A DNA stretch of 64,000 nt, from the NCBI GenBank assembly GCA_032622095.1, contig CP136066.1, positions 102,879,319 to 102,943,318 on the forward strand. The letters run 5' to 3'. A program made the position numbers and the translations under genes. The DNA is from Siphonodentalium dalli. Lineage: Eukaryota > Mollusca > Scaphopoda > Gadilida > Siphonodentaliidae. Of this stretch, positions 2,183-64,000 are shown one piece after another. A model generated the notes under the pieces. That model saw only the letters and a program-made list of their open reading frames with translations. It searched no databases and was not told the origin of the DNA. Numbering within the stretch: the stretch's first letter is position 1; the number at the start of each line of letters is the position of its first letter.

Positions 2183-2291
2183 TGAACTTGATGAGAAAGA
2201 CAAGCCGAAGTGTAATCTCTGTGAGAGGCGATTTAAAAGCATTCCAGCTCTAAATGGTCATATGAGGCTTCATGGCGGATACTTTAAAAAG
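2183..2291 (+). CDS. Exon A: C2H2 zinc finger
   Basis: Acceptor tttgtttcag and donor gtaagc bound 109 bases. The exon opens with the last base of a split codon (phase 2 intron before it) and ends in phase 0. It encodes C-x2-C-x12-H-x3-H with the core FKSIPALNGHMRLHGG, a finger signature I associate with the TRERF1/ZNF541 family. It is preceded by a short acidic/basic linker (DEKDKPK). The preceding exon is not identifiable in this window. A MITE ends 53 bases upstream of the exon. Confidence 0.9.
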
Positions 2292-39474: not shown

Positions 39475-39984
39475 GTAAGTTCTACACTTAATATATCATT
39501 TTCACAAAAAGCATTGTTAAGGATGCAAACAACACCGCTTGATCTCACGAGTTGAAAGATATATGTTATAGGTGGGACAAATATTTAATTAGAAGCTCTG
39601 CATACCATAACACAATGTAAAAGTTATAAGTGTATTCGAATCCACGTTTTTTCGCGGATGGTAGACCACCAAGACATAATCCACATGTGATGATTCAAAC
39701 ACCGAGAACAGGCCAAGAATAGACCAACAACATGTTCTCGGGTTAGGATGTTCGTTCCACAGTTATTGGGGAGTGAAAATCCAAACCTGCGAAGTTGACA
39801 ACAGTGTTCCCGGCAAATTATCACTGTTCAAATCGTCAGGAACCTGTTCGCAGTGTTAAATCTTGAGAACAACAAGAATGCAGATTCAAATACACTAGGC
39901 TAGATCCCCAGTGCAAACACTAGTGTCTTAAAGGTTTCTTTTTACATTTTTTTATTGTCGGGCCTCGAGTATTTTCTAATGAAT
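39475..39984. other. Intron between exon N and the satellite array
   Basis: No gene is supported. 'gtgtattcgaatc' (39630-39642) and 'gattcaaatacac' (39882-39894) are inverted, possibly the ends of a ~265-bp MITE; the support is weak. Confidence 0.4.
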
Positions 39985-40235
39985 TTCTCCACCCATTGCA
40001 GACTGTTCTTATGGACATATTTGTAAGAAACAGAGATAAAATAACCTTATCTAGGGAAACAAGTCAACAACTCATTGAAAACTGTCTCTCACCAGATAAT
40101 ACACATAACTCTTATTATGATGCCTTGACAATTGCAGATTATTGCTACAATTTAGAGGGCTGAACATCTCCTTAACTTATCCACACATTCCAGTCTGTTT
40201 CAAGGCTACACTTCATTTGCCCATTGCAGATTATT
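39985..40235 (+). repeat. Diverged edge unit of the satellite array
   Basis: Reads through the unit in order: CCATTGCAG-ACTGTTC, 'catatttgtaagaaac', 'agataaaataacc', 'attgaaaactgtctctcacc', 'agggctgaacatctcc', 'cagtctgtttcaaggctac', 'cccattgcagattatt'. It has substitutions and an internal deletion of the 'gaccacggcaatactc' part. It is the most diverged unit, as expected at an array edge. Confidence 0.85.
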
Positions 40236-40880
40236 ATACCCCCTTTTAAAACTGTTTTGCACCTGTTTGTGCGTGCGTACGTCTGTCCGATGTCTGTTCA
40301 GGTCATAACTTGGAACAGTAGTGCTCGGATCTCAATGAAATTTTGTATGGATGTTCACTGCTATGGGGGCATTCAATAGACGGTTACATCGTTTTGTTCA
40401 GATTTTCCATTCTAGAGTTATACATCTTTGTTTATCTGGAAATGTTGGCTTTTTGGTCCGTCTGGTGTCTGTTCATGTCGTAACTTCAACAGTTGTACTG
40501 GGATCTCAATGAAATTTGGTATGGATGTTCACTACTATGATGACATTCAATAGAGGGTTCCATTGTTCTGTTCTGCTTTTCCATTCTAGAGTTATTCATC
40601 TTTGTTTATCTGGAAATGTTGGCTGTTTGGTCCTTCTGATGTCTGTTCAGCTCATAACTTGAACAGTAATGCTCGGATCTCAATGAAATTTTGTATGGAT
40701 GTTCACCACTATGAGGACATTTAATGGCACATTCAACTGTTTTGTTTTGGATTTTTGTTCTATAGTTATATGCTGATTTTTGGGTCCATCTGAGTATAGC
40801 AGTCATAAGTTATAGATATGCCCACACTAGGCGGTATGCCACAAGGGGGTATGCACCGGACGACAGTCCATCTCTTGTTC
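40236..40880. mobile_element. Dispersed element inserted inside a 37-bp subrepeat of the array
   Basis: The array stops at ATTATT (40235) and resumes at CTACAG (40881). Between them, ATACCCCCTT and AAGGGGGTAT (40843-40852) are inverted ends, and three ~174-bp tandem units repeat 'gatctcaatgaaattttgta', 'tggatgttcactgctatg' and 'tctagagttatacatctttg'. A short tail (40853-40880) follows the right end. Confidence 0.75.
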
Positions 40881-43800
40881 CTACAGTTGTACATTCTCCA
40901 TCCATTGCAGACTGTTCCCATAGACATGTCTGTAAGAAAAGGAGATAAAATAACCTATCTCGGAAAACTGAGTTAGCAATGTCACTTCAGATAGTACAGA
41001 AGTAACATTCCCTAGATATTACCACTGTCACTGACATGGAACATCCAGTTCTCGAAATTGACCACGGCAATACTCAATGCTATGGGAAATGCCATGGCAA
41101 CATGTGGAATTTATAATCCAATAGCATTAAATTTGCCGTGGGACATTTTTCCTAATTTTAAGGGCTGAACATCTCATTAACTTATCCACTCATTGCAGTC
41201 TGTTTTCAAGGCTACACTTCATTTGCCCATTGCAGATTATTGCTACAGTTGTACATTCTCCATCCATTGCAGATTATTGCTACAGTTGTACATTCTCCAC
41301 CCATTGCAGATTATTGCTACATTTGTACATTCTCCATCCATTGCAGACTGTTCCCATAGACATGTCTGTAAGAAAAGGAGATAAAATAACCTATCTCGGA
41401 AAACTGAGTTTGCAATGTCACTTATTGAAAACTCTGTCACCAGATAGTACAGAAGTAACACCCCCTAGATATTACCATTGTCACTGACATGGAACATCCA
41501 GTTCTCGAAATTGACCACGGCAATACTAAATGCTACGGGAAATGCCATGGCAACATGGAATCTCTATAATGCAACAGCATTAAATTTGCCGTGGGACCTT
41601 TTTCCTAATGTTAAGGGCTGAACATCTCATTAACTTATCCACTCATTGCAGTCTGTTTTCAAGGCTACACTTCATTTGCCCATTGCAGATTATTGCTACA
41701 GTTGTACATTCTCCATCCATTGTAGATTATTGCTACAGTTGTACATTCTCCACCCATTGCAGATTATTGCTACAGTTGTACATTCTCCAGCCATTGCAGA
41801 CTGTTCCCATAGACATGTCTGTAAGAAAAGAAGATAAAATAACCTATCTCGGAAAACTGAGTTTGCAATGTCACTTATTGAAAACTCTGTCACCAGATAG
41901 TACAGAAGTAACACCCCCTAGACATTACCATTGTCACTGACATGGAACATCCAGTTCTCAAAATTGACCACGGCAATACTCAATGCTACGGGAAATGCCA
42001 TGGCAACATTTGGAATCTATAATGCAACAGTATTAAATTTGCCGTCGGACATTTTTCCTAATGTTAAGGGCTGAACATCTCATTAACTTATCCACTCATT
42101 GCAGTCTGTTTTCAAGGCTACACTTCATTTGCCCATTGCAGATTATTGCTACAGTTGTACATTCTCCACCCATTGCAGATTATTGCTACAGTTGTACATT
42201 CTCCACCCATTGCAGATTATTGCTACAGTTGTACATTCTCCATCCATTGCAGACTGTTCCCATAGACATGTCTGTAAGAAAAGGAGATAAAATAACCTAT
42301 CTCGGAAAACTGAGTTTGCAATGTCACTTATTGAAAACTCTGTCACCAGATAGTACAGAAGTAACACCCCCTAGACATTACCATTGTCACTGACATGGAA
42401 CATCCAGTTCTCAAAATTGACCACGTCAATACTCAATGCTACGGGAAATGCCATGGCAACATTTGGAATCTATAATGCAACAGCATTAAATTTGCCGTGG
42501 GACATTTTTCCTAATGTTAAGGGCTGAACATCTCATTAACTTATCCACTCATTGCAGTCTGTTTTCAAGGCTACACTTCATTTGCCCATTGCAGATTATT
42601 GCTACAGTTGTACATTCTCCATCCATTGCAGACTGTTCCCATAGACATGTCTGTAAGAAAAGGAGATAAAATAACCTATTTCGGAAAACTGAGTTTGCAA
42701 TGTCACTTATTGAAAACTCTGTCACCAGATAGTACAGAAGTAACACCCCCTAGACATTACCATTGTCACTGACAAGGAACATCCAGTTCTCGAAATTGAC
42801 CACGGCAATACTCAATGCTACGGGAAATGCCATGGCAACATGTGGAATCTCTATAATGCAACTGCATTAAATTTGCCGTGGGACATTTTTCCTAATGTTA
42901 AGGGCTGAACATCTCATTAACTTATCCACTCATTGCAGTCTGTTTTCAAGGCTACACTTCATTTGCCCATTGCAGATTTTTGCTACAGTTGTACATTCTC
43001 CACCCATTGCAGATTATTGCTACAGTTGTACATTCTCCACCCATTGCAGATTATTGGTACAGTTGTACATTCTCCATCCATTGCAGACTGTTCCCATAGA
43101 CATGTCTGTAAGAAAAGGAGATAAAATAACCTATCTCGGAAAACTGAGTTTGCAATGTCACTTATTGAAAACTCTGTCACCAGATAGTACAGAAGTAACA
43201 CCCCCTAGACATTACCATTGTCACTGACATGGAACATCCAGTTCTCAAAATTGACCACGGCAATACTCAATGCTACGGGAAATGCCATGGCAACATGTGG
43301 AATCTCTATAATGCAACTGCATTAAATTTGCTGTGGGACATTTTTCCTAATGTTAAGGGCTGAACATCTCATTAACTTATCCACTCATTGCAGTCTGTTT
43401 TCAAGGCTACACTTCATTTGCCCATTGCAGATTATTGCTACAGTTGTACATTCTCCACCCATTGCAGATTATTGCTACAGTTGTACATTCTCCATCCATT
43501 GCAGACTGTTCCCATAGACATGTCTGTAAGAAAAGGAGATAAAATAACCTATCTCGGAAAACTGAGTTTGCAATGTCACTTATTGAAAACTCTGTCACCA
43601 GATAGTACAGAAGTAACACCCCCTAGATATTACCATTGTCACTGACATGGAACATCCAGTTCTCGAAATTGACCACAGCAATACTCAATGCTACGGGAAA
43701 TGCCATGGCAACATGTGGAATCTCTATAATGCAACTGCATTAAATTTGCCGTGGGACATTTTTCCTAATGTTAAGGGCTGAACATCTCATTAACTTATCC

Positions 43801-45854
43801 ACTCATTGCAGTCTGTATTCAAGGCTACACTTCATTTGCCCATTGAAGATTATTGCTACAGTTGTACATTCTCCACCCATTGCAGATTATTGCTACAGTT
43901 GTACATTCTCCATCCATTGCAGACTGTTCCCATAGACATGTCAGTAAGAAAAGGAGATAAAATAACCTATCTCGGAAAACTGAGTTTGCAATGTCACTTA
44001 TTGAAAACTCTGTCACCAGATAGTACAGAAGTAACACCCCCTAGACATTACCATTGTCACTGACATGCAACATCCAGTTCTCGAAATTGACCACGGCAAT
44101 ACTCAATGCTACGGGAAATGCCATGGCAACTTGTGGAATCTATAATGCAACAGCATTAAATTTGCCGTGGGACATTTTTCCTATTTTTAAGGGCTGAACA
44201 TCTCATTAACTTATCCACTCATTGCAGTCTGTTTTCAAGGCTACACTTCATTTGCCCATTGCAGATTATTGGTACAGTTGTACATTCTCCATCCATTGCA
44301 GACTGTTCCCATAGACATGTCTGTAAGAAAAGGAGATAAAATAACCTATCTCGGAAAACTGAGTTTGCAATGTCACTTATTGAAAACTCTGTCACCAGAT
44401 AGTACAGAAGTAACACCCCCTAGATATTACCATTGTCACTGACATGGAACATCCAGTTCTCGAAATTGACCACGGCAATACTCAATGCTACGGGAAATGC
44501 CATGGCAACATGTGGAATCTCTATAATGCAACTGCATTAAATTTGCTGTGGGACATTTTTCCTAATGTTAAGGGCTGAACATCTCATTAACTTATCCACT
44601 CATTGCAGTCTGTATTCAAGGCTACACTTCATTTGCCCATTGAAGATTATTGCTACAGTTGTACATTCTCCACCCATTGCAGATTATTGCTACAGTTGTA
44701 CATTCTCCATCCATTGCAGACTGTTCCCATAGACATGTCTGTAAGAAAAGGAGATAAAATAACCTATCTCGGAAAACTGAGTTTGCAATGTCACTTATTG
44801 AAAACTCTGTCACCAGATAGTACAGAAGTAACACCCACTAGATATTACCATTGTCACTGACATGGAACATCCAGTTCTCGAAATTGACCACGGCAATACT
44901 CAATGCTACGGGAAATGCCATGGCAACATGTGGAATCTCTATAATGCAACTGCATTAAATTTGCTGTGGGACATTTTTCCTAATGTTAAGGGCTGAACAT
45001 CTCATTAACTTATCCACTCATTGCAGGCTGTTTTCAAGGCTACACTTCATTTGCCCATTGCAGATTATTGCTACAGTTGTACATTCTCCACCCATTGCAG
45101 ATTATTGCTACAGTTGTACATTCTCCATCCATTGCAGACTGTTCCCATAGACATGTCTGTAAGAAAAGGAGATAAAATAACCTATCTCGGAAAACTGAGT
45201 TTGCAATGTCACTTATTGAAAACTCTGTCACCAGATAGTACAGAAGTAACACCCCCTAGATATTACCATTGTCACTGACATGGAACATCCAGTTCTCGAA
45301 ATTGACCACAGCAATACTCAATGCTACGGGAAATGCCATGGCAACATGTGGAATCTCTATAATGCAACAGCATTAAATTTGCCGTAGGACATTTTTCCTA
45401 ATGTTAAGGGCTGAACATCTCATTAACTTATCCACTCATTGCAGTCTGTTTTCAAGGCTACACTTCATTTGCCCATTGCAGATTATTGCTACAGTTGTAC
45501 ATTCTCCACCCATTGCAGATTATTGCTACATTTGTACATTCTCCATCCATTGCAGGCTGTTCCCATAGACATGTCTGTAAGAAAAGGAGATAAAATAACC
45601 TATCTCGGAAAACTGAGTTTGCAATGTAACTTATTGAAAACTCTGTCACCAGATAGTACAGAAGTAACACCCCCTAGATATTACCATTGCCACTGACATG
45701 GAACATCCAGTTCTCGAAATTGACCACGGCAATACTCAATGCTACGGGAAATGCCATGGCAACATGTGGAATCTATAATGCAACAGCATTAAATTTGCCA
45801 TGGGACATTTTTCCTAATTTTAAGGGCTGATCATCTCATTAACTTATCCACTCA

Positions 45855-48800
45855 TTGCAGTCTGTTTTCAAGGCTACACTTCATTTGCCCATTGCAGATT
45901 TTTGCTACAGTTGTACATTCTCCACCCATTGCAGATTATTGCTACAGTTGTACATTCTTCACCCATTGCAGATTATTGCTACAGTTGTACATTCTCCATC
46001 CATTGCAGACTGTTCCCATAGACATGTCTGTAAGAAAAGGAGATAAAATAACCTATCTCGGAAAACTGAGTTTGCAATGTCACTTATTGAAAACTCTGTC
46101 ACCAGATAGTACAGAAGTAACACCCCCTAGACATTACCATTGTCACTGACATGGAACATCCAGTTCTCAAAATTGACCACGGCAATACTCAATGCTATGG
46201 GAAATGCCATGGCAACGTTTGGAATCTATAATGCAACAGCATTAAATTTGCCGTGGGACATTTTTCCTAATTTTAAGGGCTGAACATCTCATTAACTTAT
46301 CTACTCATTGCAGTCTGTTTTCACGGCTACACTTCATTTGCCCATTGCAGATTATTGCTACAGTTGTACATTCTCCATCCATTGTAGATTATTGCTACAT
46401 TTGTACATTCTCCATCCATTGCAGGCTGTTCCCATAGACATGTCTGTAAGAAAAGGAGATAAAATAACCTATCTCGGAAAACTGAGTTTGCAATGTAACT
46501 TATTGAAAACTCTGTCACCAGATAGTACAGAAGTAACACCCCCTAGATATTACCATTGCCACTGACATGGAACATCCAGTTCTCGAAATTGACCACGGCA
46601 ATACTCAATGCTACGGGAAATGCCATGGCAACATGTGGAATCTATAATGCAACAGCATTAAATTTGCCATGGGACATTTTTCCTAATTTTAAGGGCTGAT
46701 CATCTCATTAACTTATCCACTCATTGCAGTCTGTTTTCAAGGCTACACTTCATTTGCCCATTGCAGATTTTTGCTACAGTTGTACATTCTCCACCCATTG
46801 CAGATTATTGCTACAGTTGTACATTCTCCACCCATTGCAGATTATTGCTACAGTTGTACATTCTCCATCCATTGCAGACTGTTCCCATAGACATGTCTGT
46901 AAGAAAAGGAGATAAAATAACCTATCTCGGAAAACTGAGTTTGCAATGTCACTTATTGAAAACTCTGTCACCAGATAGTACAGAAGTAACACCCCCTAGA
47001 CATTACCATTGTCACTGACATGGAACATCCAGTTCTCAAAATTGACCACGTCAATACTCAATGCTACGGGAAATGCCATGGCAACATTTGGAATCTATAA
47101 TGCAACAGCATTAAATTTGCCGTGGGACATTTTTCCTAATGTTAAGGGCTGAACATCTCATTAACTTATCCACTCATTGCAGTCTGTTTTCAAGGCTACA
47201 CTTCATTTGCCCATTGCAGATTATTGCTACAGTTGTACATTCTCCATCCATTGCAGACTGTTCCCATAGACATATCTGTAAGAAAAGGAGATAAAATAAC
47301 CTATTTCGGAAAACTGAGTTTGCAATGTCACTTATTGAAAACTCTGTCACCAGATAGTACAGAAGTAACACCCCCTAGATATTACCATTGTCACTGACAT
47401 GGAACATCCAGTTCTCGAAATTGACCACAGCAATACTCAATGCTACGGGAAATGCCATGGCAACATGTGGAATCTCTATAATGCAACAGCATTAAATTTG
47501 CCGTAGGACATTTTTCCTAATGTTAAGGGCTGAACATCTCATTAACTTATCCACTCATTGCAGTCTGTTTTCAAGGCTACACTTCATTTGCCCATTGCAG
47601 ATTATTGCTACAGTTGTACATTCTCCACCCATTGCAGATTATTGCTACATTTGTACATTCTCCATCCATTGCAGGCTGTTCCCATAGACATGTCTGTAAG
47701 AAAAGGAGATAAAATAACCTATCTCGGAAAACTGAGTTTGCAATGTAACTTATTGAAAACTCTGTCACCAGATAGTACAGAAGTAACACCCCCTAGATAT
47801 TACCATTGCCACTGACATGGAACATCCAGTTCTCGAAATTGACCACGGCAATACTCAATGCTACGGGAAATGCCATGGCAACATGTGGAATCTATAATGC
47901 AACAGCATTAAATTTGCCATGGGACATTTTTCCTAATTTTAAGGGCTGATCATCTCATTAACTTATCCACTCATTGCAGTCTGTTTTCAAGGCTACACTT
48001 CATTTGCCCATTGCAGATTTTTGCTACAGTTGTACATTCTCCACCCATTGCAGATTATTGCTACAGTTGTACATTCTTCACCCATTGCAGATTATTGCTA
48101 CAGTTGTACATTCTCCATCCATTGCAGACTGTTCCCATAGACATGTCTGTAAGAAAAGGAGATAAAATAACCTATCTCGGAAAACTGAGTTTGCAATGTC
48201 ACTTATTGAAAACTCTGTCACCAGATAGTACAGAAGTAACACCCCCTAGACATTACCATTGTCACTGACATGGAACATCCAGTTCTCAAAATTGACCACG
48301 GCAATACTCAATGCTATGGGAAATGCCATGGCAACGTTTGGAATCTATAATGCAACAGCATTAAATTTGCCGTGGGACATTTTTCCTAATTTTAAGGGCT
48401 GAACATCTCATTAACTTATCTACTCATTGCAGTCTGTTTTCACGGCTACACTTCATTTGCCCATTGCAGATTATTGCTACAGTTGTACATTCTCCATCCA
48501 TTGTAGATTATTGCTACATTTGTACATTCTCCATCCATTGCAGGCTGTTCCCATAGACATGTCTGTAAGAAAAGGAGATAAAATAACCTATCTCGGAAAA
48601 CTGAGTTTGCAATGTAACTTATTGAAAACTCTGTCACCAGATAGTACAGAAGTAACACCCCCTAGATATTACCATTGCCACTGACATGGAACATCCAGTT
48701 CTCGAAATTGACCACGGCAATACTCAATGCTACGGGAAATGCCATGGCAACATGTGGAATCTATAATGCAACAGCATTAAATTTGCCATGGGACATTTTT

Positions 48801-50092
48801 CCTAATTTTAAGGGCTGATCATCTCATTAACTTATCCACTCATTGCAGTCTGTTTTCAAGGCTACACTTCATTTGCCCATTGCAGATTATTGCTACAGTT
48901 GTACATTCTCCACCCATTGCAGATTATTGCTACAGTTGTACATTCTCCACCCATTGCAGATTATTGCTACAGTTGTACATTCTCCATCCATTGCAGACTG
49001 TTCCCATAGACATGTCTGTAAGAAAAGGAGATAAAATAACCTATCTCGGAAAACTGAGTTTGCAATGTCACTTATTGAAAACTCTGTCACCAGATAGTAC
49101 AGAAGTAACACCCCCTAGACATTACCATTGTCACTGACATGGAACATCCAGTTCTCAAAATTGACCACGTCAATACTCAATGCTACGGGAAATGCCATGG
49201 CAACATTTGGAATCTATAATGCAACAGCATTAAATTTGCCGTGGGACATTTTTCCTAATGTTAAGGGCTGAACATCTCATTAACTTATCCACTCATTGCA
49301 GTCTGTTTTCAAGGCTACACTTCATTTGCCCATTGCAGATTATTGCTACAGTTGTACATTCTCCATCCATTGCAGACTGTTCCCATAGACATATCTGTAA
49401 GAAAAGGAGATAAAATAACCTATTTCGGAAAACTGAGTTTGCAATGTCACTTATTGAAAACTCTGTCACCAGATAGTACAGAAGTAACACCCCCTAGACA
49501 TTACCATTGTCACTGACATGGAACATCCAGTTCTCGAAATTGACCACGGCAATACTCAATGCTACGGGAAATGCCATGGCAACATGTGGAATCTCTATAA
49601 TGCAACTGCATTAAATTTGCCGTGGGACATTTTTCCTAATGTTAAGGGCTGAACATCTCATTAACTTATCCACTCATTGCAGTCTGTTTTCAAGGCTACA
49701 CTTCATTTGCCCATTGCAGATTATTGCTACAGTTGTACATTCTCCACCCATTGCAGATTATTGCTACATTTGTACATTCTCCATCCATTGCAGGCTGTTC
49801 CCATAGACATGTCTGTAAGAAAAGGAGATAAAATAACCCATCTCGGAAAACTGAGTTTGCAATGTCACTTATTGAAAACTCTGTCACCAGATAGTACAGA
49901 AGTAACACCCCCTAGATATTACCATTGTCACTGACATGGAACATCCAGTTCTCGAAATTGACCACGGCAATACTCAATGCTACGGGAAATGCCATGGCAA
50001 CATTTGGAATCTATAATGCAACAGCATTAAATTTGCTGTGGGACATTTTTCCTATTTTTAAGGGCTGAACATCTCATTTACTTATCCACTCA
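45855..50092 (+). repeat. Higher-order repeat, 2.12 kb, two adjacent copies
   Basis: Subrepeat counts run 3-2-3-1-2 in 45855-47973 and again 3-2-3-1-2 in 47974-50092 (2,119 bp each). Unit-specific variants recur at the same place: 'ttttcacggctac' with 'tctactcattg' in the second unit, 'catatctgtaag' with 'ctatttcgg' in the fourth, and 'gcaggctgttcc' with 'aatgtaactt'. Confidence 0.85.
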
Positions 50093-53000
50093 TTGCAGTC
50101 TGTTTTCAAGGCTACACTTCATTTGCCCATTGCAGATTATTGCTACAGTTGTACATTCTCCATCCATTTCAGATTATTGCTACATTTGTACATTCTCCAT
50201 CCATTGCAGACTGTTCCCATAGACATGTCTGTAAGAAAAGGAGATAAAATAACCTATCTCGGAAAACTGAGTTTGCAATGTCACTTATTGAAAACTCTGT
50301 CACCAGATAGTACAGAAGTAACACCCCCTAGATATTACCATTGTCACTGACATGGAACATCCAGTTATCGAAATTGACCACGGCAATACTCAATGCTACG
50401 GGAAATGCCATGGCAACATGTGGAACTATAATGCAACAGCATTAAATTTGCCGTGGGACATTTTTCCTAATTTTAAGGGCTGAACATCTCATTAACTTAT
50501 CCACTCATTGCAGTCTGTTTTCAAGGCTACACTTCATTTGCCCATTGCAGATTATTGCTACAGTTGTACATTCTCCATCCATTGTAGATTATTGCTACAT
50601 TTGTACATTCTCCATCCATTGCAGACTGTTCCCATAGACATGTCTGTAAGAAAAGGAGATAAAATAACCTATCTCGGAAAACTGAGTTTGCAATGTCACT
50701 TATTGAAAACTCTGTCACCAGATAGTACAGAAGTAACACCCCCTAGATATTACCATTGTCACTGACATGGAACGTCCAGTTATCGAAATTGACCACGGCA
50801 ATACTCAATGCTACGGGAAATGCCATGGCAACTTGCGGAATCTATAATGCAACAGCATTAAATTTGCCGTGGGACATTTTTCCTAATTTTAAGGGCTGAA
50901 CATCTCATTAACTTATCTACTCATTGCAGTCTGTTTTCACGGCTACACTTCATTTGCCCATTGCAGATTATTGCTACAGTTGTACATTCTCCATCCATTG
51001 TAGATTATTGCTACATTTGTACATTCTCCATCCATTGCAGGCTGTTCCCATAGACATGTCTGTAAGAAAAGGAGATAAAATAACCTATCTCGGAAAACTG
51101 AGTTTGCAATGTAACTTATTGAAAACTCTGTCACCAGATAGTACAGAAGTAACACCCCCTAGATATTACCATTGCCACTGACATGGAACATCCAGTTCTC
51201 GAAATTGACCACGGCAATACTCAATGCTACGGGAAATGCCATGGCAACATGTGGAATCTATAATGCAACAGCATTAAATTTGCCATGGGACATTTTTCCT
51301 AATTTTAAGGGCTGATCATCTCATTAACTTATCCACTCATTGCAGTCTGTTTTCAAGGCTACACTTCATTTGCCCATTGCAGATTTTTGCTACAGTTGTA
51401 CATTCTCCACCCATTGCAGATTATTGCTACAGTTGTACATTCTTCACCCATTGCAGATTATTGCTACAGTTGTACATTCTCCATCCATTGCAGACTGTTC
51501 CCATAGACATGTCTGTAAGAAAAGGAGATAAAATAACCTATCTCGGAAAACTGAGTTTGCAATGTCACTTATTGAAAACTCTGTCACCAGATAGTACAGA
51601 AGTAACACCCCCTAGACATTACCATTGTCACTGACATGGAACATCCAGTTCTCAAAATTGACCACGGCAATACTCAATGCTACGGGAAATGCCATGGCAA
51701 CGTTTGGAATCTATAATGCAACAGCATTAAATTTGCCGTGGGACATTTTTCCTAATTTTAAGGGCTGAACATCTCATTAACTTATTTTACTCATTGCAGT
51801 CTGTTTTCACGGCTACACTTCATTTGCCCATTGCAGATTATTGCTACAGTTGTACATTCGCCCTCCATTGTAGATTATTGCTACATTTGTACATTCTCCA
51901 TCCATTGCAGGCTGTTCCCATAGACATGTCTGTAAGAAAAGGAGATAAAATAACCTATCTCGGAAAACTGAGTTTGCAATGTAACTTATTGAAAACTCTG
52001 TCACCAGATAGTACAGAAGTAACACCCCCTAGATATTACCATTGCCACTGACATGGAACATCCAGTTCTCGAAATTGACCACGGCAATACTCAATGCTAC
52101 GGGAAATGCCATGGCAACATGTGGAATCTATAATGCAACAGCATTAAATTTGCCATGGGACATTTTTCCTAATTTTAAGGGCTGATCATCTCATTAACTT
52201 ATCCACTCATTGCAGTCTGTTTTCAAGGCTACACTTCATTTGCCCATTGCAGATTTTTGCTACAGTTGTACATTCTCCACCCATTGCAGATTATTGCTAC
52301 AGTTGTACATTCTCCACCTATTGCAGATTATTGCTACAGTTGTACATTCTCCATCCATTGCAGACTGTTCCCATAGACATGTCTGTAAGAAAAGGAGATA
52401 AAATAACCTATCTCGGAAAACTGAGTTTGCAATGTCACTTATTGAAAACTCTGTCACCAGATAGTACAGAAGTAACACCCCCTAGACATTACCATTGTCA
52501 CTGACATGGAACGTCCAGTTCTCAAAATTGACCACGTCAATACTCAATGCTACGGGAAATGCCATGGCAACATTTGGAATCTATAATGCAACAGCATTAA
52601 ATTTGCCGTGGGACATTTTTCCTAATGTTAAGGGCTGAACATCTCATTAACTTATCCACTCATTGCAGTCTGTTTTCAAGGCTACACTTCATTTGCCCAT
52701 TGCAGATTATTGCTACAGTTGTACATTCTCCATCCATTGCAGACTGTTCCCATAGACATATCTGTAAGAAAAGGAGATATAATAACCTATTTCGGAAAAC
52801 TGAGTTTGCAATGTCACTTATTGAAAACTCTGTCACCAGATAGTACAGAAGTAACACCCCCTAGACATTACCATTGTCACTGACATGGAACATCCAGTTC
52901 TCGAAATTGACCACGGCAATACTCAATGCTACGGGAAATGCCATGGCAACATGTGGAATCTCTATAATGCAACTGCATTAAATTTGCCGTGGGACATTTT

Positions 53001-56000
53001 TCCTAATGTTAAGGGCTGAACATCTCATTAACTTATCCACTCATTGCAGTCTGTTTTCAAGGCTACACTTCATTTGCCCATTGCAGATTATTGCTACAGT
53101 TGTACATTCTCCACCCATTGCAGATTATTGCTACATTTGTACATTCTCCATCCATTGCAGGCTGTTCCCATAGACATGTCTGTAAGAAAAGGAGATAAAA
53201 TAACCTATCTCGGAAAACTGAGTTTGCAATGTCACTTATTGAAAACTCTGTCACCAGATAGTACAGAAGTAACACCCCCTAGATATTACCATTGTCACTG
53301 ACATGGAACATCCAGTTCTCGAAATTGACCACGGCAATACTCAATGCTACGGGAAATGCCATGGCAACATGTGGAATCTATAATGCAACAGCATTAAATT
53401 TGCCATGGGACATTTTTCCTAATTTTAAGGGCTGAACATCTCATTAACTTATCCACTCATTGCAGTCTGTTTTCAAGGCTACACTTCATTTGTCCATTGC
53501 AGATTTTTGCTACAGTTGTACATTCTCCACCCATTGCAGATTATTGCTACAGTTGTACATTCTCCACCCATTGCAGATTATTGGTACAGTTGTACATTCT
53601 CCATCCATTGCAGACTGTTCCCATAGACATGTCTGTAAGAAAAGGAGATAAAATAACCTATCTCGGAAAACTGAGTTTGCAATGTCACTTATTGAAAACT
53701 CTGTCACCAGATAGTACAGAAGTAACACCCCCTAGACATTACCATTGTCACTGACATGGAACATCCAGTTCTCAAAATTGACCACGTCAATACTCAATGC
53801 TACGGGAAATGCCATGGCAACATTTGGAATCTATAATGCAACAGCATTAAATTTGCTGTGGGACATTTTTCCTATTTTTAAGGGCTGAACATCTCATTTA
53901 CTTATCCACTCATTGCAGTCTGTTTTCAAGGCTACACTTCATTTGCCCATTGCAGATTATTGCTACAGTTGTACATTCTCCATCCATTTCAGATTATTGC
54001 TACATTTGTACATTCTCCATCCATTGCAGACTGTTCCCATAGACATGTCTGTAAGAAAAGGAGATAAAATAACCTATCTCGGAAAACTGAGTTTGCAATG
54101 TCACTTATTGAAAACTCTGTCACCAGATAGTACAGAAGTAACACCCCCTAGATATTACCATTGTCACTGACATGGAACATCCAGTTATCGAAATTGACCA
54201 CGGCAATACTCAATGCTACGGGAAATGCCATGGCAACATGTGGAACTATAATGCAACAGCATTAAATTTGCCGTGGGACATTTTTCCTAATTTTAAGGGC
54301 TGAACATCTCATTAACTTATCCACTCATTGCAGTCTGTTTTCAAGGCTACACTTCATTTGCCCATTGCAGATTATTGCTACAGTTGTACATTCTCCATCC
54401 ATTGTAGATTATTGCTACATTTGTACATTCTCCATCCATTGCAGACTGTTCCCATAGACATGTCTGTAAGAAAAGGAGATAAAATAACCTATCTCGGAAA
54501 ACTGAGTTTGCAATGTCACTTATTGAAAACTCTGTCACCAGATAGTACAGAAGTAACACCCCCTAGATATTACCATTGTCACTGACATGGAACGTCCAGT
54601 TATCGAAATTGACCACGGCAATACTCAATGCTACGGGAAATGCCATGGCAACTTGCGGAATCTATAATGCAACAGCATTAAATTTGCCGTGGGACATTTT
54701 TCCTAATTTTAAGGGCTGAACATCTCATTAACTTATCTACTCATTGCAGTCTGTTTTCACGGCTACACTTCATTTGCCCATTGCAGATTATTGCTACAGT
54801 TGTACATTCTCCATCCATTGTAGATTATTGCTACATTTGTACATTCTCCATCCATTGCAGGCTGTTCCCATAGACATGTCTGTAAGAAAAGGAGATAAAA
54901 TAACCTATCTCGGAAAACTGAGTTTGCAATGTAACTTATTGAAAACTCTGTCACCAGATAGTACAGAAGTAACACCCCCTAGATATTACCATTGCCACTG
55001 ACATGGAACATCCAGTTCTCGAAATTGACCACGGCAATACTCAATGCTACGGGAAATGCCATGGCAACATGTGGAATCTATAATGCAACAGCATTAAATT
55101 TGCCATGGGACATTTTTCCTAATTTTAAGGGCTGATCATCTCATTAACTTATCCACTCATTGCAGTCTGTTTTCAAGGCTACACTTCATTTGCCCATTGC
55201 AGATTTTTGCTACAGTTGTACATTCTCCACCCATTGCAGATTATTGCTACAGTTGTACATTCTTCACCCATTGCAGATTATTGCTACAGTTGTACATTCT
55301 CCATCCATTGCAGACTGTTCCCATAGACATGTCTGTAAGAAAAGGAGATAAAATAACCTATCTCGGAAAACTGAGTTTGCAATGTCACTTATTGAAAACT
55401 CTGTCACCAGATAGTACAGAAGTAACACCCCCTAGACATTACCATTGTCACTGACATGGAACATCCAGTTCTCAAAATTGACCACGGCAATACTCAATGC
55501 TACGGGAAATGCCATGGCAACGTTTGGAATCTATAATGCAACAGCATTAAATTTGCCGTGGGACATTTTTCCTAATTTTAAGGGCTGAACATCTCATTAA
55601 CTTATCTACTCATTGCAGTCTGTTTTCACGGCTACACTTCATTTGCCCATTGCAGATTATTGCTACAGTTGTACATTCTCCATCCATTGTAGATTATTGC
55701 TACATTTGTACATTCTCCATCCATTGCAGGCTGTTCCCATAGACATGTCTGTAAGAAAAGGAGATAAAATAACCTATCTCGGAAAACTGAGTTTGCAATG
55801 TAACTTATTGAAAACTCTGTCACCAGATAGTACAGAAGTAACACCCCCTAGATATTACCATTGCCACTGACATGGAACATCCAGTTCTCGAAATTGACCA
55901 CGGCAATACTCAATGCTACGGGAAATGCCATGGCAACATGTGGAATCTATAATGCAACAGCATTAAATTTGCCATGGGACATTTTTCCTAATTTTAAGGG

Positions 56001-57731
56001 CTGAACATCTCATTAACTTATCCACTCATTGCAGTCTGTTTTCAAGGCTACACTTCATTTGCCCATTGCAGATTTTTGCTACAGTTGTACATTCTCCACC
56101 CATTGCAGATTATTGCTACAGTTGTACATTCTCCACCCATTGCAGATTATTGCTACAGTTGTACATTCTCCATCCATTGCAGACTGTTCCCATAGACATG
56201 TCTGTAAGAAAAGGAGATAAAATAACCTATCTCGGAAAACTGAGTTTGCAATGTCACTTATTGAAAACTCTGTCACCAGATAGTACAGAAGTAACACCCC
56301 CTAGACATTACCATTGTCACTGACATGGAACATCCAGTTCTCAAAATTGACCACGTCAATACTCAATGCTACGGGAAATGCCATGGCAACATTTGGAATC
56401 TATAATGCAACAGCATTAAATTTGCCGTGGGACATTTTTCCTAATGTTAAGGGCTGAACATCTCATTAACTTATCCACTCATTGCAGTCTGTTTTCAAGG
56501 CTACACTTCATTTGCCCATTGCAGATTATTGCTACAGTTGTACATTCTCCATCCATTGCAGACTGTTCCCATAGACATATCTGTAAGAAAAGGAGATAAA
56601 ATAACCTATTTCGGAAAACTGAGTTTGCAATGTCACTTATTGAAAACTCTGTCACCAGATAGTACAGAAGTAACACCCCCTAGACATTACCATTGTCACT
56701 GACATGGAACATCCAGTTCTCGAAATTGACCACGGCAATACTCAATGCTACGGGAAATGCCATGGCAACATGTGGAATCTCTATAATGCAACTGCATTAA
56801 ATTTGCCGTGGGACATTTTTCCTAATGTTAAGGGCTGAACATCTCATTAACTTATCCACTCATTGCAGTCTGTTTTCAAGGCTACACTTCATTTGCCCAT
56901 TGCAGATTATTGCTACAGTTGTACATTCTCCACCCATTGCAGATTATTGCTACATTTGTACATTCTCCATCCATTGCAGGCTGTTCCCATAGACATGTCT
57001 GTAAGAAAAGGAGATAAAATAACCTATCTCGGAAAACTGAGTTTGCAATGTCACTTATTGAAAACTCTGTCACCAGATAGTACAGAAGTAACACCCCCTA
57101 GATATTACCATTGTCACTGACATGGAACATCCAGTTCTCGAAATTGACCACGGCAATACTCAATGCTACGGGAAATGCCATGGCAACATGTGGAATCTAT
57201 AATGCAACAGCATTAAATTTGCCATGGGACATTTTTCCTAATTTTAAGGGCTGAACATCTCATTAACTTATCCACTCATTGCAGTCTGTTTTCAAGGCTA
57301 CACTTCATTTGTCCATTGCAGATTTTTGCTACAGTTGTACATTCTCCACCCATTGCAGATTATTGCTACAGTTGTACATTCTCCACCCATTGCAGATTAT
57401 TGGTACAGTTGTACATTCTCCATCCATTGCAGACTGTTCCCATAGACATGTCTGTAAGAAAAGGAGATAAAATAACCTATCTCGGAAAACTGAGTTTGCA
57501 ATGTCACTTATTGAAAACTCTGTCACCAGATAGTACAGAAGTAACACCCCCTAGACATTACCATTGTCACTGACATGGAACATCCAGTTCTCAAAATTGA
57601 CCACGTCAATACTCAATGCTACGGGAAATGCCATGGCAACATTTGGAATCTATAATGCAACAGCATTAAATTTGCTGTGGGACATTTTTCCTATTTTTAA
57701 GGGCTGAACATCTCATTTACTTATCCACTCA
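50093..57731 (+). repeat. Higher-order repeat, 3.82 kb nine-unit block, two copies plus the start of a third
   Basis: 50093-53912 and 53913-57731 have the same order of subrepeat counts (2-2-2-3-2-3-1-2-3) and the same private variants, for example 'atccatttcagatt' with 'ctcatttacttatcc' in unit 1 and 'aacgtccagttatcg' in unit 2. A third copy starts at 57732 and departs at about 57995 ('ttattgaaattgaccacagc'). Confidence 0.88.
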
Positions 57732-58149
57732 TTGCAGTCTGTTTTCAAGGCTACACTTCATTTGCCCATTGCAGATTATTGCTACAGTTGTACATTCTCC
57801 ATCCATTTCAGATTATTGCTACATTTGTACATTCTCCATCCATTGCAGACTGTTCCCATAGACATGTCTGTAAGAAAAGGAGATAAAATAACCTATCTCG
57901 GAAAACTGAGTTTGCAATGTCACTTATTGAAAACTCTGTCACCAGATAGTACAGAAGTAACACCCCCTAGATATTACCATTGTCACTGACATGGAACATC
58001 CAGTTATTGAAATTGACCACAGCAATACTCAATGCTATGGGAAATGCCATGGCAACATGTGGAATCTCTATAATGCAACTGCATTAAATTTGCCGTGGGA
58101 CATTTTTCCTAATGTTAAGGGCTGAACATCTCATTAACTTATCCACTCA

Positions 58150-61100
58150 TTGCAGTCTGTATTCAAGGCTACACTTCATTTGCCCATTGAAGATTATTGC
58201 TACAGTTGTACATTCTCCACCCATTGCAGATTATTGCTACAGTTGTACATTCTCCATCCATTGCAGACTGTTCCCATAGACATGTCAGTAAGAAAAGGAG
58301 ATAAAATAACCTATCTCGGAAAACTGAGTTTGCAATGTCACTTATTGAAAACTCTGTCACCAGATAGTACAGAAGTAACACCCCCTAGACATTACCATTG
58401 TCACTGACATGCAACATCCAGTTCTCGAAATTGACCACGGCAATACTCAATGCTACGGGAAATGCCATGGCAACTTGTTGAATCTATAATGCAACAGCAT
58501 TAAATTTGCCGTGGGACATTTTTCCTATTTTTAAGGGCTGAACATCTCATTAACTTATCCACTCATTGCAGTCTGTTTTCAAGGCTACACTTCATTTGCC
58601 CATTGCAGATTATTGGTACAGTTGTACATTCTCCATCCATTGCAGACTGTTCCCATAGACATGTCTGTAAGAAAAGGAGATAAAATAACCTATCTCGGAA
58701 AACTGAGTTTGCAATGTCACTTATTGAAAACTCTGTCACCAGATAGTACAGAAGTAACACCCCCTAGATATTACCATTGTCACTGACATGGAACATCCAG
58801 TTCTTGAAATTGACCACGGCAATACTCAATGCTACGGGAAATGCCATGGCAACATGTGGAATCTATAATGCAACAGCATTAAATTTGCTGTGGGACATTT
58901 TTCCTATTTTTAAGGGCTGAACATCTCATTTACTTATCCACTCATTGCAGTCTGTTTTCAAGGCTACACTTCATTTGCCCATTGCAGATTATTGCTACAG
59001 TTGTACATTCTCCATCCATTTCAGATTATTGCTACATTTGTACATTCTCCATCCATTGCAGACTGTTCCCATAGACATGTCTGTAAGAAAAGGAGATAAA
59101 ATAACCTATCTCGGAAAACTGAGTTTGCAATGTCACTTATTGAAAACTCTGTCACCAGATAGTACAGAAGTAACACCCCCTAGATATTACCATTGTCACT
59201 GACATGGAACGTCCAGTTATCGAAATTGACCACGGCAATACTCAATGCTACGGGAAATGCCATGGCAACATGTGGAACTATAATGCAACAGCATTAAATT
59301 TGCCGTGGGACATTTTTCCTAATTTTAAGGGCTGAACATCTCATTAACTTATCCACTCATTGCAGTCTGTTTTCAAGGCTACACTTCATTTGCCCATTGC
59401 AGATTATTGCTACAGTTGTACATTCTCCATCCATTGTAGATTATTGCTACATTTGTACATTCTCCATCCATTGCAGACTGTTCCCATAGACATGTCTGTA
59501 AGAAAAGGAGATAAAATAACCTATCTCGGAAAACTGAGTTTGCAATGTCACTTATTGAAAACTCTGTCACCAGATAGTACAGAAGTAACACCCCCTAGAT
59601 ATTACCATTGTCACTGACATGGAACGTCCAGTTATCGAAATTGACCACGGCAATACTCAATGCTACGGGAAATGCCATGGCAACTTGCGGAATCTATAAT
59701 GCAACAGCATTAAATTTGCCGTGGGACATTTTTCCTATTTTTTAGGGCTGAACATCTCATTAACTTATCCACTCATTGCAGTCTGTTTTCAAGGCTACAC
59801 TTCATTTGCCCATTGCAGATTATTGCTACAGTTGTACATTCTCCATCCATTGCAGACTGTTCCCATAGACATGTCTGTAAGAAAAGGAGATAAAATAACC
59901 TATCTCGGAAAACTGAGTTTGCAATGTCACTTATTGAAAACTCTGTCACCAGATAGTACAGAAGTAACACCCCCTAGACATTACCATTGTCACTGACATG
60001 GAACATCCAGTTCTCAAAATTGACCACGGCAATACTCAATGCTACGGGAAATGCCATGGCAACATGTGGAATCTCTATAATGCAACTGCATTAAATTTGC
60101 TGTGGGACATTTTTCCTAATGTTAAGGGCTGAACATCTCATTAACTTATCCACTCATTGCAGTCTGTTTTCAAGGCTACACTTCATTTGCCCATTGCAGA
60201 TTATTGCTACAGTTGTACATTCTCCACCCATTGCAGATTATTGCTACATTTGTACATTCTCCATCCATTGCAGACTGTTCCCATAGACATGTCTGTAAGA
60301 AAAGGAGATAAAATAACCTATCTCGGAAAACTGAGTTTGCAATGTCACTTATTGAAAACTCTGTCACCAGATAGTACAGAAGTAACACCCCCTAGATATT
60401 ACCATTGTCACTGACATGGAACATCCAGTTCTCGAAATTGACCACAGCAATACTCAATGCTACGGGAAATGCCATGGCAACATGTGGAATCTCTATAATG
60501 CAACTGCATTAAATTTGCCGTGGGACATTTTTCCTAATGTTAAGGGCTGAACATCTCATTAACTTATCCACTCATTGCAGTCTGTATTCAAGGCTACACT
60601 TCATTTGCCCATTGAAGATTATTGCTACAGTTGTACATTCTCCACCCATTGCAGATTATTGCTACAGTTGTACATTCTCCATCCATTGCAGACTGTTCCC
60701 ATAGACATGTCAGTAAGAAAAGGAGATAAAATAACCTATCTCGGAAAACTGAGTTTGCAATGTCACTTATTGAAAACTCTGTCACCAGATAGTACAGAAG
60801 TAACACCCCCTAGACATTACCATTGTCACTGACATGCAACATCCAGTTCTCGAAATTGACCACGGCAATACTCAATGCTACGGGAAATGCCATGGCAACT
60901 TGTTGAATCTATAATGCAACAGCATTAAATTTGCCGTGGGACATTTTTCCTATTTTTAAGGGCTGAACATCTCATTAACTTATCCACTCATTGCAGTCTG
61001 TTTTCAAGGCTACACTTCATTTGCCCATTGCAGATTATTGGTACAGTTGTACATTCTCCATCCATTGCAGACTGTTCCCATAGACATGTCTGTAAGAAAA

Positions 61101-62581
61101 GGAGATAAAATAACCTATCTCGGAAAACTGAGTTTGCAATGTCACTTATTGAAAACTCTGTCACCAGATAGTACAGAAGTAACACCCCCTAGATATTACC
61201 ATTGTCACTGACATGGAACATCCAGTTCTTGAAATTGACCACGGCAATACTCAATGCTACGGGAAATGCCATGGCAACATGTGGAATCTATAATGCAACA
61301 GCATTAAATTTGCTGTGGGACATTTTTCCTATTTTTAAGGGCTGAACATCTCATTTACTTATCCACTCATTGCAGTCTGTTTTCAAGGCTACACTTCATT
61401 TGCCCATTGCAGATTATTGCTACAGTTGTACATTCTCCATCCATTTCAGATTATTGCTACATTTGTACATTCTCCATCCATTGCAGACTGTTCCCATAGA
61501 CATGTCTGTAAGAAAAGGAGATAAAATAACCTATCTCGGAAAACTGAGTTTGCAATGTCACTTATTGAAAACTCTGTCACCAGATAGTACAGAAGTAACA
61601 CCCCCTAGATATTACCATTGTCACTGACATGGAACGTCCAGTTATCGAAATTGACCACGGCAATACTCAATGCTACGGGAAATGCCATGGCAACATGTGG
61701 AACTATAATGCAACAGCATTAAATTTGCCGTGGGACATTTTTCCTAATTTTAAGGGCTGAACATCTCATTAACTTATCCACTCATTGCAGTCTGTTTTCA
61801 AGGCTACACTTCATTTGCCCATTGCAGATTATTGCTACAGTTGTACATTCTCCATCCATTGCAGACTGTTCCCATAGACATGTCTGTAAGAAAAGGAGAT
61901 AAAATAACCTATCTCGGAAAACTGAGTTTGCAATGTCACTTATTGAAAACTCTGTCACCAGATAGTACAGAAGTAACACCCCCTAGACATTACCATTGTC
62001 ACTGACATGGAACATCCAGTTCTCAAAATTGACCACGGCAATACTCAATGCTACGGGAAATGCCATGGCAACATGTGGAATCTCTATAATGCAACTGCAT
62101 TAAATTTGCTGTGGGACATTTTTCCTAATGTTAAGGGCTGAACATCTCATTAACTTATCCACTCATTGCAGTCTGTTTTCAAGGCTACACTTCATTTGCC
62201 CATTGCAGATTATTGCTACAGTTGTACATTCTCCACCCATTGCAGATTATTGCTACAGTTGTACATTCTCCATCCATTGCAGACTGTTCCCATAGACATG
62301 TCTGTAAGAAAAGGAGATAAAATAACCTATCTCGGAAAACTGAGTTTGCAATGTCACTTATTGAAAACTCTGTCACCAGATAGTACAGAAGTAACACCCC
62401 CTAGACATTACCATTGTCACTGACATGCAACATCCAGTTCTCGAAATTGACCACGGCAATACTCAATGCTACGGGAAATGCCATGGCAACTTGTTGAATC
62501 TATAATGCAACAGCATTAAATTTGCCGTGGGACATTTTTCCTATTTTTAAGGGCTGAACATCTCATTAACTTATCCACTCA
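58150..62581 (+). repeat. Higher-order repeat, 2.43 kb, second copy missing one unit
   Basis: 58150-60574 (2,425 bp) is a six-unit block marked by 'gtctgtattcaagg' with 'cattgaagatt', then 'attggtacag', then 'atccatttcagatt'. It restarts at 60575 with the same markers but lacks the unit equivalent to 59360-59775, so this copy is 416 bp shorter. Confidence 0.75.
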
Positions 62582-64000
62582 TTGCAGTCTGTTTTCAAGG
62601 CTACACTTCATTTGCCCATTGCAGATTATTGGTACAGTTGTACATTCTCCATCCATTGCAGACTGTTCCCATAGACATGTCTGTAAGAAAAGGAGATAAA
62701 ATAACCTATCTCGGAAAACTGAGTTTGCAATGTCACTTATTGAAAACTCTGTCACCAGATAGTACAGAAGTAACACCCCCTAGATATTACCATTGTCACT
62801 GACATGGAACATCCAGTTCTTGAAATTGACCACGGCAATACTCAATGCTACGGGAAATGCCATGGCAACATGTGGAATCTATAATGCAACAGCATTAAAT
62901 TTGCTGTGGGACATTTTTCCTAATTTTAAGGGCTGAACATCTCATTAACTTATCCACTCATTGCAGTCTGTTTTCAAGGCTACACTTCATTTGCCCATTG
63001 CAGATTTTTGCTACAGTTGTACATTCTCCACCCATTGCAGATTATTGCTACAGTTGTACATTCTCCACCCATTGCAGATTATTGCTACAGTTGTACATTC
63101 TCCATCCATTGCAGACTGTTCCCATAGACATGTCTGTAAGAAAAGGAGATAAAATAACCTATCTCGGAAAACTGAGTTTGCATTGTCACTTATTGAAAAC
63201 TCTGTCACCAGATAGTACAGAAGTAACAACCCCTAGATATTACCATTGTCACTGACATGGAACATCCAGTTCTCGAAATTGACCACGGCAATACTCAATG
63301 CTACGGGAAATGCCATGGCAACATGTGGAATCTATAATGCAACAGCATTAAATTTGCTGTGGGACATTTTTCCTATTTTTAAGGGCTGAACATCTCATTT
63401 ACTTATCCACTCATTGCAGTCTGTTTTCAAGGCTACACTTCATTTGCCCATTGCAGATTATTGCTACAGTTGTACATTCTCCATCCATTTCAGATTATTG
63501 CTACATTTGTACATTCTCCATCCATTGCAGACTGTTCCCATAGACATGTCTGTAAGAAAAGGAGATAAAATAACCTATCTCGGAAAACTGAGTTTGCAAT
63601 GTCACTTATTGAAAACTCTGTCACCAGATAGTACAGAAGTAACACCCCCTAGATATTACCATTGTCACTGACATGGAACGTCCAGTTATCGAAATTGACC
63701 ACGGCAATACTCAATGCTACGGGAAATGCCATGGCAACATGTGGAACTATAATGCAACAGCATTAAATTTGCCGTGGGACATTTTTCCTAATTTTAAGGG
63801 CTGAACATCTCATTAACTTATCCACTCATTGCAGTCTGTTTTCAAGGCTACACTTCATTTGCCCATTGCAGATTATTGCTACAGTTGTACATTCTCCATC
63901 CATTGTAGATTATTGCTACATTTGTACATTCTCCATCCATTGCAGACTGTTCCCATAGACATGTCTGTAAGAAAAGGAGATAAAATAACCTATCTCGGAA

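Follow-up and report, generated by a model that had tools for sequence, protein, structure and literature searches.

A MIDEAS-like gene and a satellite array share the locus

The window, meaning the whole 64,000-nucleotide stretch of Siphonodentalium dalli DNA that was analyzed, contains nine coding exons of a MIDEAS-like gene, followed on the same strand by a long tandem array (Table 1). When joined, the exons give 817 codons with no stops. Both Pfam ELM2 and Myb/SANT were found over the cut-off in the gene product. The ELM2-SANT part was best matched by MIDEAS in two solved structures, PDB 9r4i (E 9.2e-26) and 6z2j (E 1.1e-25), and the next-best structure was REST corepressor 1 (E 1.9e-10). 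TRERF1 and ZNF541 were absent among the 16 structure matches, so the assignment is to the family and not to one paralogue within it. The matches support a MIDEAS/TRERF1/ZNF541 type ELM2-SANT protein, in agreement with the conserved chromatin regulator proposed in the earlier note. The product is most likely a histone-deacetylase scaffold, since its ELM2-SANT part matches MIDEAS, the scaffold of MiDAC. In excerpts of PMC4344507 and PMC3088716, ELM2 followed by SANT is the order in this family and in nematode SAEG-1, as in the present gene, and SAEG-1 is reported to carry C2H2 finger(s) outside its ELM2-SANT part.

Table 1. Positions of the exons and repeat features in the window
Feature	Position	Strand	Evidence or remark
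Dispersed diverged relative of monomer part (consensus 191-262)	1720..1789	+	blastn 84.7%, E 6e-17
Large coding exon, MIDEAS-like gene, ends in PNTPRGLLSAHRR; 5' limit provisional	17004..18612	+	acceptor, donor, open frame
Coding exon, MIDEAS-like gene	22429..22528	+	frame-consistent join
Coding exon, ELM2 start (HINIGTQFQAALPPYN)	25258..25307	+	frame-consistent join, ELM2 match
Coding exon, ELM2	27741..27827	+	frame-consistent join
Coding exon beyond Pfam ELM2 match, still aligning to MIDEAS	28808..28941	+	frame-consistent join
Coding exon between ELM2 and SANT	31874..31949	+	frame-consistent join
Coding exon, first half of SANT	32653..32741	+	frame-consistent join
Coding exon, second half of SANT and tail	37477..37695	+	frame-consistent join
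Exon N, 87 nt, ends in ITYGCPYPGCSS, Cys half of presumed C2H2 finger	39388..39474	+	frame-consistent join
Diverged partial satellite monomer copy	39985..40235	+	blastn E 7e-23 and 4e-32
Inserted element, about 646 nt	about 40236..40881		2.6 units of 174 nt
Satellite array	40882..64000	+	TRF, marker matches, monomer alignment; reaches window end

The last exon before the array, exon N, is bounded by an acceptor (..attgtag/GAGAAG) and a donor (TCTTCT/gtaagt), with phase 0 on both sides. It ends with the residues CPYPGCSS, just past the Cys pair, as the earlier note had read it. Using untrained score matrices, the acceptor scored -0.7 (second lowest of nine) and the donor 1.4 (third lowest of nine).

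The array extends to the end of the window

The tandem array is at least 23.1 kb long, lies in a single orientation and continues to base 64000; no right edge is found within the window. The marker GACATGTCTGTAAGAAAAGG (up to 3 mismatches) gave 56 matches on the forward strand, from 40923 to 63958, while two array markers (up to 4 mismatches) gave none on the reverse strand. These counts bear out the head-to-tail array of more than 23 kb described in the earlier note. Being head-to-tail, in one orientation and many kb long, it has the arrangement of satellite DNA. TRF reported periods of 416 and 453, together with a 37-nt sub-repeat, through base 64000. The 55 complete monomers fall into three length classes of 342+37k nt, with k=1 in 11, k=2 in 29 and k=3 in 15. 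Their pairwise identity is 93.5-100% (mean 96.6%, gap columns excluded), at which the earlier note's near-identical is slightly strong. The three monomers at the left edge (m01, m02 and m03) differ from their nearest copies in 30, 14 and 10 columns with gaps counted. The remaining 52 are closer to their nearest copies, with m05 at 9 differing columns and the other 51 at 0-5. The last full monomer, m55, shows no differences from m44.

The order of the monomers reveals duplicated blocks. A label-run test based on greedy clustering gave a longest run of 5, equal to the shuffle maximum of 5, and was superseded by a distance-based test. There, monomers matched at a single lag for up to 10 in a row (m22-m31 versus m31-m40, lag 9), a length reached in 0 of 2000 order shuffles, whose maximum was 5. 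Mean identity between monomers was 0.962 at lag 1, 0.971 at lag 9 and 0.974 at lag 22. The array is, therefore, a higher-order repeat in that multi-monomer blocks are closer to each other than neighbors are; it is irregular and has no single fixed block. The clearest duplicated block covers about nine monomers, or 3.8 kb.

A diverged copy lies between exon N and the array

According to the earlier note, the array ran from exon N onward apart from one inserted element. It does reach the window end, but about 510 nt separate exon N from the first, diverged repeat copy, and no array-like match was detected in 39475-39974 at E 0.01. This border copy aligns to the monomer with 80% identity over 125 columns and 93% over 88, in the orientation of the array, leaving consensus positions of about 94-248 unmatched. 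The inserted element separates it from the array and interrupts a 37-nt repeat unit. The ends of the insertion were set by eye and are accurate to a few bases, and related fragments are present at 2418-2607 and 5156-5220.

The border bears on whether the gene and the array were wrongly brought together, by an assembler that used a shared repeat to misjoin a gene contig to a satellite contig, or whether the copy number is wrong. The diverged border copy is the sort of bridge that could mislead an assembler, and duplicated blocks of up to ten matched monomers make the copy number hard to fix. However, orientation is uniform from the border copy through the array and the insertion between the two splits a repeat unit, so the join does not fall at a stretch of identity and a misjoin becomes less likely. 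The first monomers are also diverged, as those at a real edge would be. We consider this class of assembly error unlikely. Exon N and the array are probably true neighbors, given the border copy in that stretch and the insertion inside a 37-nt repeat unit.

Search for the second half of the zinc finger

If exon N supplies the Cys half of a finger, a later exon should carry the His pair. No convincing one was found in 39475-64000 when each AG was scanned for 8-12 residues in phase 0 followed by H-x3-5-H/C. Only 3 matches came from 1150 AGs, and by eye all of them lacked both a pyrimidine tract and a finger-like core. The same scan of a control stretch (1000-39387) gave 42 matches from 1894 AGs, so such matches are commoner there. 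Another His-half pattern gave 3 matches in 39475-42700, none convincing.

These scans leave an alternative in which the array lies downstream of a working gene end, reached either by readthrough of exon N past 39474 or in a short last exon before 39985. Readthrough would add 26 residues before a stop, the donor of exon N scores below the gene's median, and two of the three His-half matches (39631 and 39707) precede the array, the first of them soon meeting a stop. Both, however, follow purine-rich stretches and by eye lack the usual hydrophobic spacing, and matches of this kind are commoner in the control. AATAAA and ATTAAA are absent from 39475-40895, the donor after exon N reads GTAAGT, and a readthrough product would have half a finger. 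An early gene end is quite improbable. We infer that the array lies in an intron that splits a zinc finger and that the exon with the His pair lies beyond the array.

Origin of the array

The reading that accounts best for these observations, and a rather likely one, is that of an ordinary intronic satellite that was seeded by a dispersed repeat, grew by unequal exchange and is passively spliced out. The starting point would have been a dispersed repeat in the intron 3' of exon N, probably either a non-autonomous transposon or the tandem-repeat core of one. A short stretch of this repeat may have multiplied into the 37-nt sub-repeats, after which the whole unit would have grown into a head-to-tail array. 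Multi-monomer blocks could then have undergone unequal crossing over or conversion, which would have homogenized the interior while the left border stayed diverged. The intron would be transcribed whole and removed as one long intron, with splicing presumed normal. A transposon origin for the monomer is suggested here only tentatively, since its dispersed relative amounts to one match of 70 nt. The array itself is probably without a function.

Splice-like motifs in the array

Each full monomer contains ATTAAA and splice-site-like motifs. Across the 55 monomers there are 202 copies of CATTGCAG and 55 of GTAAGA. Between the two lies an in-frame cassette resembling a mini-exon (translation TVPIDMS), which is exactly 21 nt long in 45 cases, 38 of them identical. 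Sites that resemble acceptors and score no lower than the gene's median occur at 7.44 per kb on the forward strand of the array versus 1.04 per kb in 1-39387.

These counts could favor the array as a splicing element, in which the CATTGCAG motifs and the mini-exon act as decoys or stepping stones during excision of the long intron and array length tunes the share of protein with a complete finger. In its fullest form, the array would be a length-variable rheostat in which CATTGCAG, the mini-exon, the U1-like GTAAGA and ATTAAA make the yield of the complete C-terminal finger dependent on copy number, which unequal exchange would keep altering among individuals. The enrichment was rejected as proof of function. 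The monomer copies are not independent and come near to a single observation, the antisense strand is likewise enriched (2.29 versus 0.81 per kb), and the score matrices were not trained. On both strands, all donor-like sites of the array score below the gene's median; the mini-exon donor (TCT/GTAAGA) scores -0.24 versus 1.38 for that of exon N. Both the splicing element and its rheostat form are very improbable.

Comparison with known systems

Large intronic satellites are less rare than the earlier note held. Kourtidis reportedly described in 2006 satellites within the HSP70 introns of Mytilus galloprovincialis; judged by title alone, the present case would resemble this bivalve gene in having satellite sequence in an intron. 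In Drosophila, the Y genes kl-3 and kl-5 have gigantic introns filled with megabases of satellite (PMC6508621, PMC11207136). As there, tandem satellite would have to be transcribed and spliced across within a protein-coding gene. The excerpts of those papers describe simple repeats, Y-linked and expressed in spermatogenesis, in contrast to a complex monomer of 379-453 nt in an array of at least 23 kb, known from sequence alone, in a chromatin-regulator gene.

Oyster satellite DNAs and the central repeats of the Helentron Cg_HINE are described as dispersed through the assembled genome and often transposon-linked, with some elements reported from non-coding gene regions, and a monomer of 436 bp is given for one C. 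virginica satellite (PMC7492417, PMC8268682, PMC11136912, in part). By description, they resemble the present array in being tandem repeats of a complex monomer, but in C. gigas the HINE clusters form mostly short arrays, with monomers of about 140-180 bp. Helentron/HINE elements are marked by subterminal inverted repeats and a 3' palindrome on either side of such central repeats. A standalone oyster satellite array of about 40 kb, containing an assembly gap, is also described (PMC8268682, in part). Our literature search on satellite arrays in mollusc introns returned no report, and one on intronic satellites or tandem repeats and splicing returned Drosophila work only.

Intronic satellites, including megabase ones, and long satellite introns are already known, and the present array overturns nothing and adds no new mechanism. 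Should the intron prove to end past the array, the locus would offer a sequence-resolved case of a conserved chromatin regulator that harbors a long higher-order satellite, next to which a diverged relic copy can still be seen. It would also be a handy place to study length variation of an intronic satellite among individuals and its effect on splicing.

Composition and motif searches

Several candidate identities for the monomer were discarded. No Rfam family reached its gathering score in the 64-kb window, including hammerhead or other RNA families in the monomer; the only matches in 39480-43600 at E up to 5 were five to SNORA38, which were dismissed because their scores of 18.7-20.1 bits fall far short of the cut-off, 60. 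ARAGORN, run with the bacterial code, found no tRNA, and a tRNA-derived origin was dropped. A hairpin or MITE-like core was also rejected, the inverted repeat CCACGGCAA/TTGCCGTGG having a folding z of -1.81 with 9 of 200 shuffles equal or better. No CENP-B-like box was found in the window. Monomer pieces of 32 and 22 nt in viral contigs and of 24 nt in genome contigs gave 0 matches, which is uninformative for animals since the collections were viral and prokaryotic.

The longest stop-free frame in the array has 118 codons, on the forward strand. Outside the gene model, an upstream finger, CNLCERRFKSIPALNGHMRLH, lies at 2211-2273 (zf-C2H2_6, E 2.4e-5, 24.6 bits versus a cut-off of 25). The observed/expected CpG ratio is 0.29 in the array versus 0.75 in 1-39387, where 11% of 416-nt windows are equally CpG-poor. 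An excess of C>T and G>A was seen at the five consensus CpGs of the monomer, three of which vary, and the CpG-poor array is perhaps methylated.

The satellite array

The earlier note had described a head-to-tail array of more than 23 kb running to the window end, and this was borne out: a 20-nt marker gave 56 matches on the + strand of the array, which contains 55 full monomers (m01-m55, left to right), and neither of two monomer markers matched the other strand. Pairwise identity among the complete monomers, computed without gap columns, averages 96.6% (range 93.5-100%). Monomer length is about 342 + 37k nt, that is, it changes by whole 37-nt steps (11 of the 55 monomers have k = 1, 29 have k = 2, and 15 have k = 3), and TRF called the 37-nt unit as a separate repeat. 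The array is, therefore, a satellite that has a minisatellite nested within it. Its right border lies beyond the window, and m55, the last full monomer, matches m44 exactly.

Features of the window and their coordinates
Feature	Coordinates	Strand	Details
Relative of monomer positions 191-262	1720-1789		84.7%, E 6e-17
Probable coding exon	2183-2291		Ends by eye; complete C2H2 finger CNLCERRFKSIPALNGHMRLH
Weaker relatives of inserted element	2418-2607; 5156-5220		
15-nt in-frame coding repeat	3727-3848		8.1 copies; GKPLS/GKPVS pentapeptides; in 238-codon open frame, 3505-4221
Near-perfect palindromes	9456-9668; 37832-38047		106-nt arms, 95-98% complementary; 1-4 nt spacer
Single-arm copy of palindrome family	34444-34551		
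Related short tandem arrays	13853-14532; 25887-26203		Periods 170 and 150 nt; GTCC-type microsatellite precedes each
MIDEAS-like gene model	17004-39474		Nine exons joining in frame; 817 codons, 0 stops
Second inverted-repeat element	21653-21906		123-nt arms, 92% complementary; 103-nt tandem duplication inside
Single arm of second inverted-repeat element	6640-6756		
Exon N, last exon of model	39388-39474		87 nt; both sides phase 0
Diverged partial monomer copy	39985-40235	same orientation as array	About 510 nt after exon N
Inserted element	between partial copy and array		About 646 nt; holds 174-nt units
Satellite array	40882-64000 (last base of window)	+	Head-to-tail copies

The gene and its probable last intron

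The gene model upstream of the array carries ELM2 (E 7.2e-6) and Myb/SANT (E 1.2e-8) domains, both exceeding the Pfam cut-off. Its matches to 9r4i and 6z2j, structures with MIDEAS, have E of 9.2e-26 and 1.1e-25, far ahead of REST corepressor 1 (1.9e-10). The ELM2-SANT domain is common to MIDEAS, TRERF1, and ZNF541 (PMC4344507), and a relative in nematodes, SAEG-1, is a protein of the C2H2 finger type that also has ELM2 and SANT (PMC3088716). The probable coding exon near the left end of the window likely encodes an N-terminal finger of this gene, outside the joined model; it matched Pfam zf-C2H2_6 with an E of 2.4e-5 and a score of 24.6 bits, just short of the 25-bit cut-off.

Exon N ends in CPYPGCSS in phase 0, in agreement with the Cys pair described previously. 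Its splice scores, from untrained consensus matrices, are low (acceptor -0.7, gene median 4.1; donor 1.4, gene median 1.9), but its frame and position favor a real exon, as does the GTAAGT that follows. The eight introns within the model measure 703-4735 nt, and the last would measure at least 24526 nt. That the His half follows exon N is sensibly inferred rather than observed. Among the 1150 AGs in 39475-64000, three were followed by a His half in phase 0 (39631, 39707, and 42777), and on visual inspection none of these has a pyrimidine tract or a core resembling a finger; in the control, 1000-39387, 42 of 1894 AGs matched. An intron that splits the finger and has its far end beyond the window is the probable interpretation. 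Since two of the three matches precede the array, we retained the alternative that the gene ends before it. These two weak matches and the low scores of exon N count slightly for this early end, which we still regard as very unlikely, and slightly against the reading that we consider quite probable: as a whole, the array is a passive intronic satellite after exon N of a MIDEAS-type gene, derived from a dispersed repeat and grown by unequal exchange.

Splice-like motifs in the array

GTAAGA and ATTAAA occur on the sense strand of all 55 full monomers, and CATTGCAG occurs 202 times over them. Forty-five cassettes have the form CATTGCAG-21 nt-GTAAGA (38 identical), and the 21 nt read TVPIDMS in the exon N frame. 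Splice-like sites were scored with untrained consensus matrices at a threshold of the gene's median or higher. Acceptor-like sites number 7.44 per kb on the + strand of the array versus 1.04 in 1-39387, and 2.29 versus 0.81 on the other strand; donor-like sites are absent from both strands of the array, with 2.62 and 1.75 per kb in 1-39387. Because the monomer copies are not independent, this enrichment amounts to roughly one observation of one monomer and is no evidence of function. A role for the array beyond passive baggage is unsupported.

Origin and growth

The partial copy beside the array shows 80% (125 columns) and 93% (88 columns) matches to the monomer consensus and leaves consensus positions 94-248 (approximately) unmatched. 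The flanks of the inserted element are two parts of one 37-nt unit, minus two or three bases, so it was inserted into sequence that was already repetitive. Together with the relative at the left end of the window, the diverged copy and the context of the inserted element point to a dispersed, transposon-like repeat as the likely parent. Monomer pieces had no matches in viral and prokaryotic collections, which hold no animals.

Neighboring monomers are not the most alike: mean identity is 0.962 at lag 1, whereas lags 9 and 22 give 0.971 and 0.974. The spread over lags 1-25 is small, and lag 21 (0.960) falls below lag 1. The order of matched runs is a stronger sign of block growth. Such runs recur at fixed lags, and the longest pairs ten monomers, m22-m31 with m31-m40, at lag 9 with at most four differing columns each; a nine-monomer block of about 3.8 kb is, therefore, present twice, side by side. 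When the monomer order was shuffled 2000 times, no run was longer than five. These repeated runs are a signature of multi-monomer blocks undergoing unequal exchange or conversion. At its left border the array is diverged: m01, m02, and m03 differ from their nearest copies at 30, 14, and 10 columns (gaps counted), and m01 lacks a stretch as well; of the other 52 monomers, m05 stands at 9 and 51 at 0-5.

The array has a CpG observed/expected ratio of 0.29, compared with 0.75 for 1-39387; elsewhere, 11% of windows of the same size are as depleted. At the five CpGs of the consensus, C>T was found in 20/275 cells (76/4825 at other C) and G>A in 30/275 (24/3463 at other G), cells that are not independent. 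The depletion and the excess are compatible with germline methylation, but the excess comes from just five CpGs, three of them variable.

Known cases and other repeats

The array is real, but cases from mussel, Drosophila, and oyster make it one of a known kind. Satellites reportedly lie in HSP70 introns in a mussel study. Published work describes Drosophila Y genes whose introns hold megabases of satellite and are transcribed (PMC6508621), with co-transcriptional splicing (PMC11207136), and oyster satellite-like repeats that are mostly transposon-linked and scattered over the assembled genome, including one standalone array that reaches about 40 kb and contains an assembly gap (PMC7492417, PMC8268682).

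Elsewhere in the window, the palindromes with 106-nt arms form a foldback/MITE-like family. The dispersed repeats have a style that may suggest a bivalve source. The microsatellite-then-array layout of the two short tandem arrays resembles that described for oyster Helentron-type (HINE) elements.
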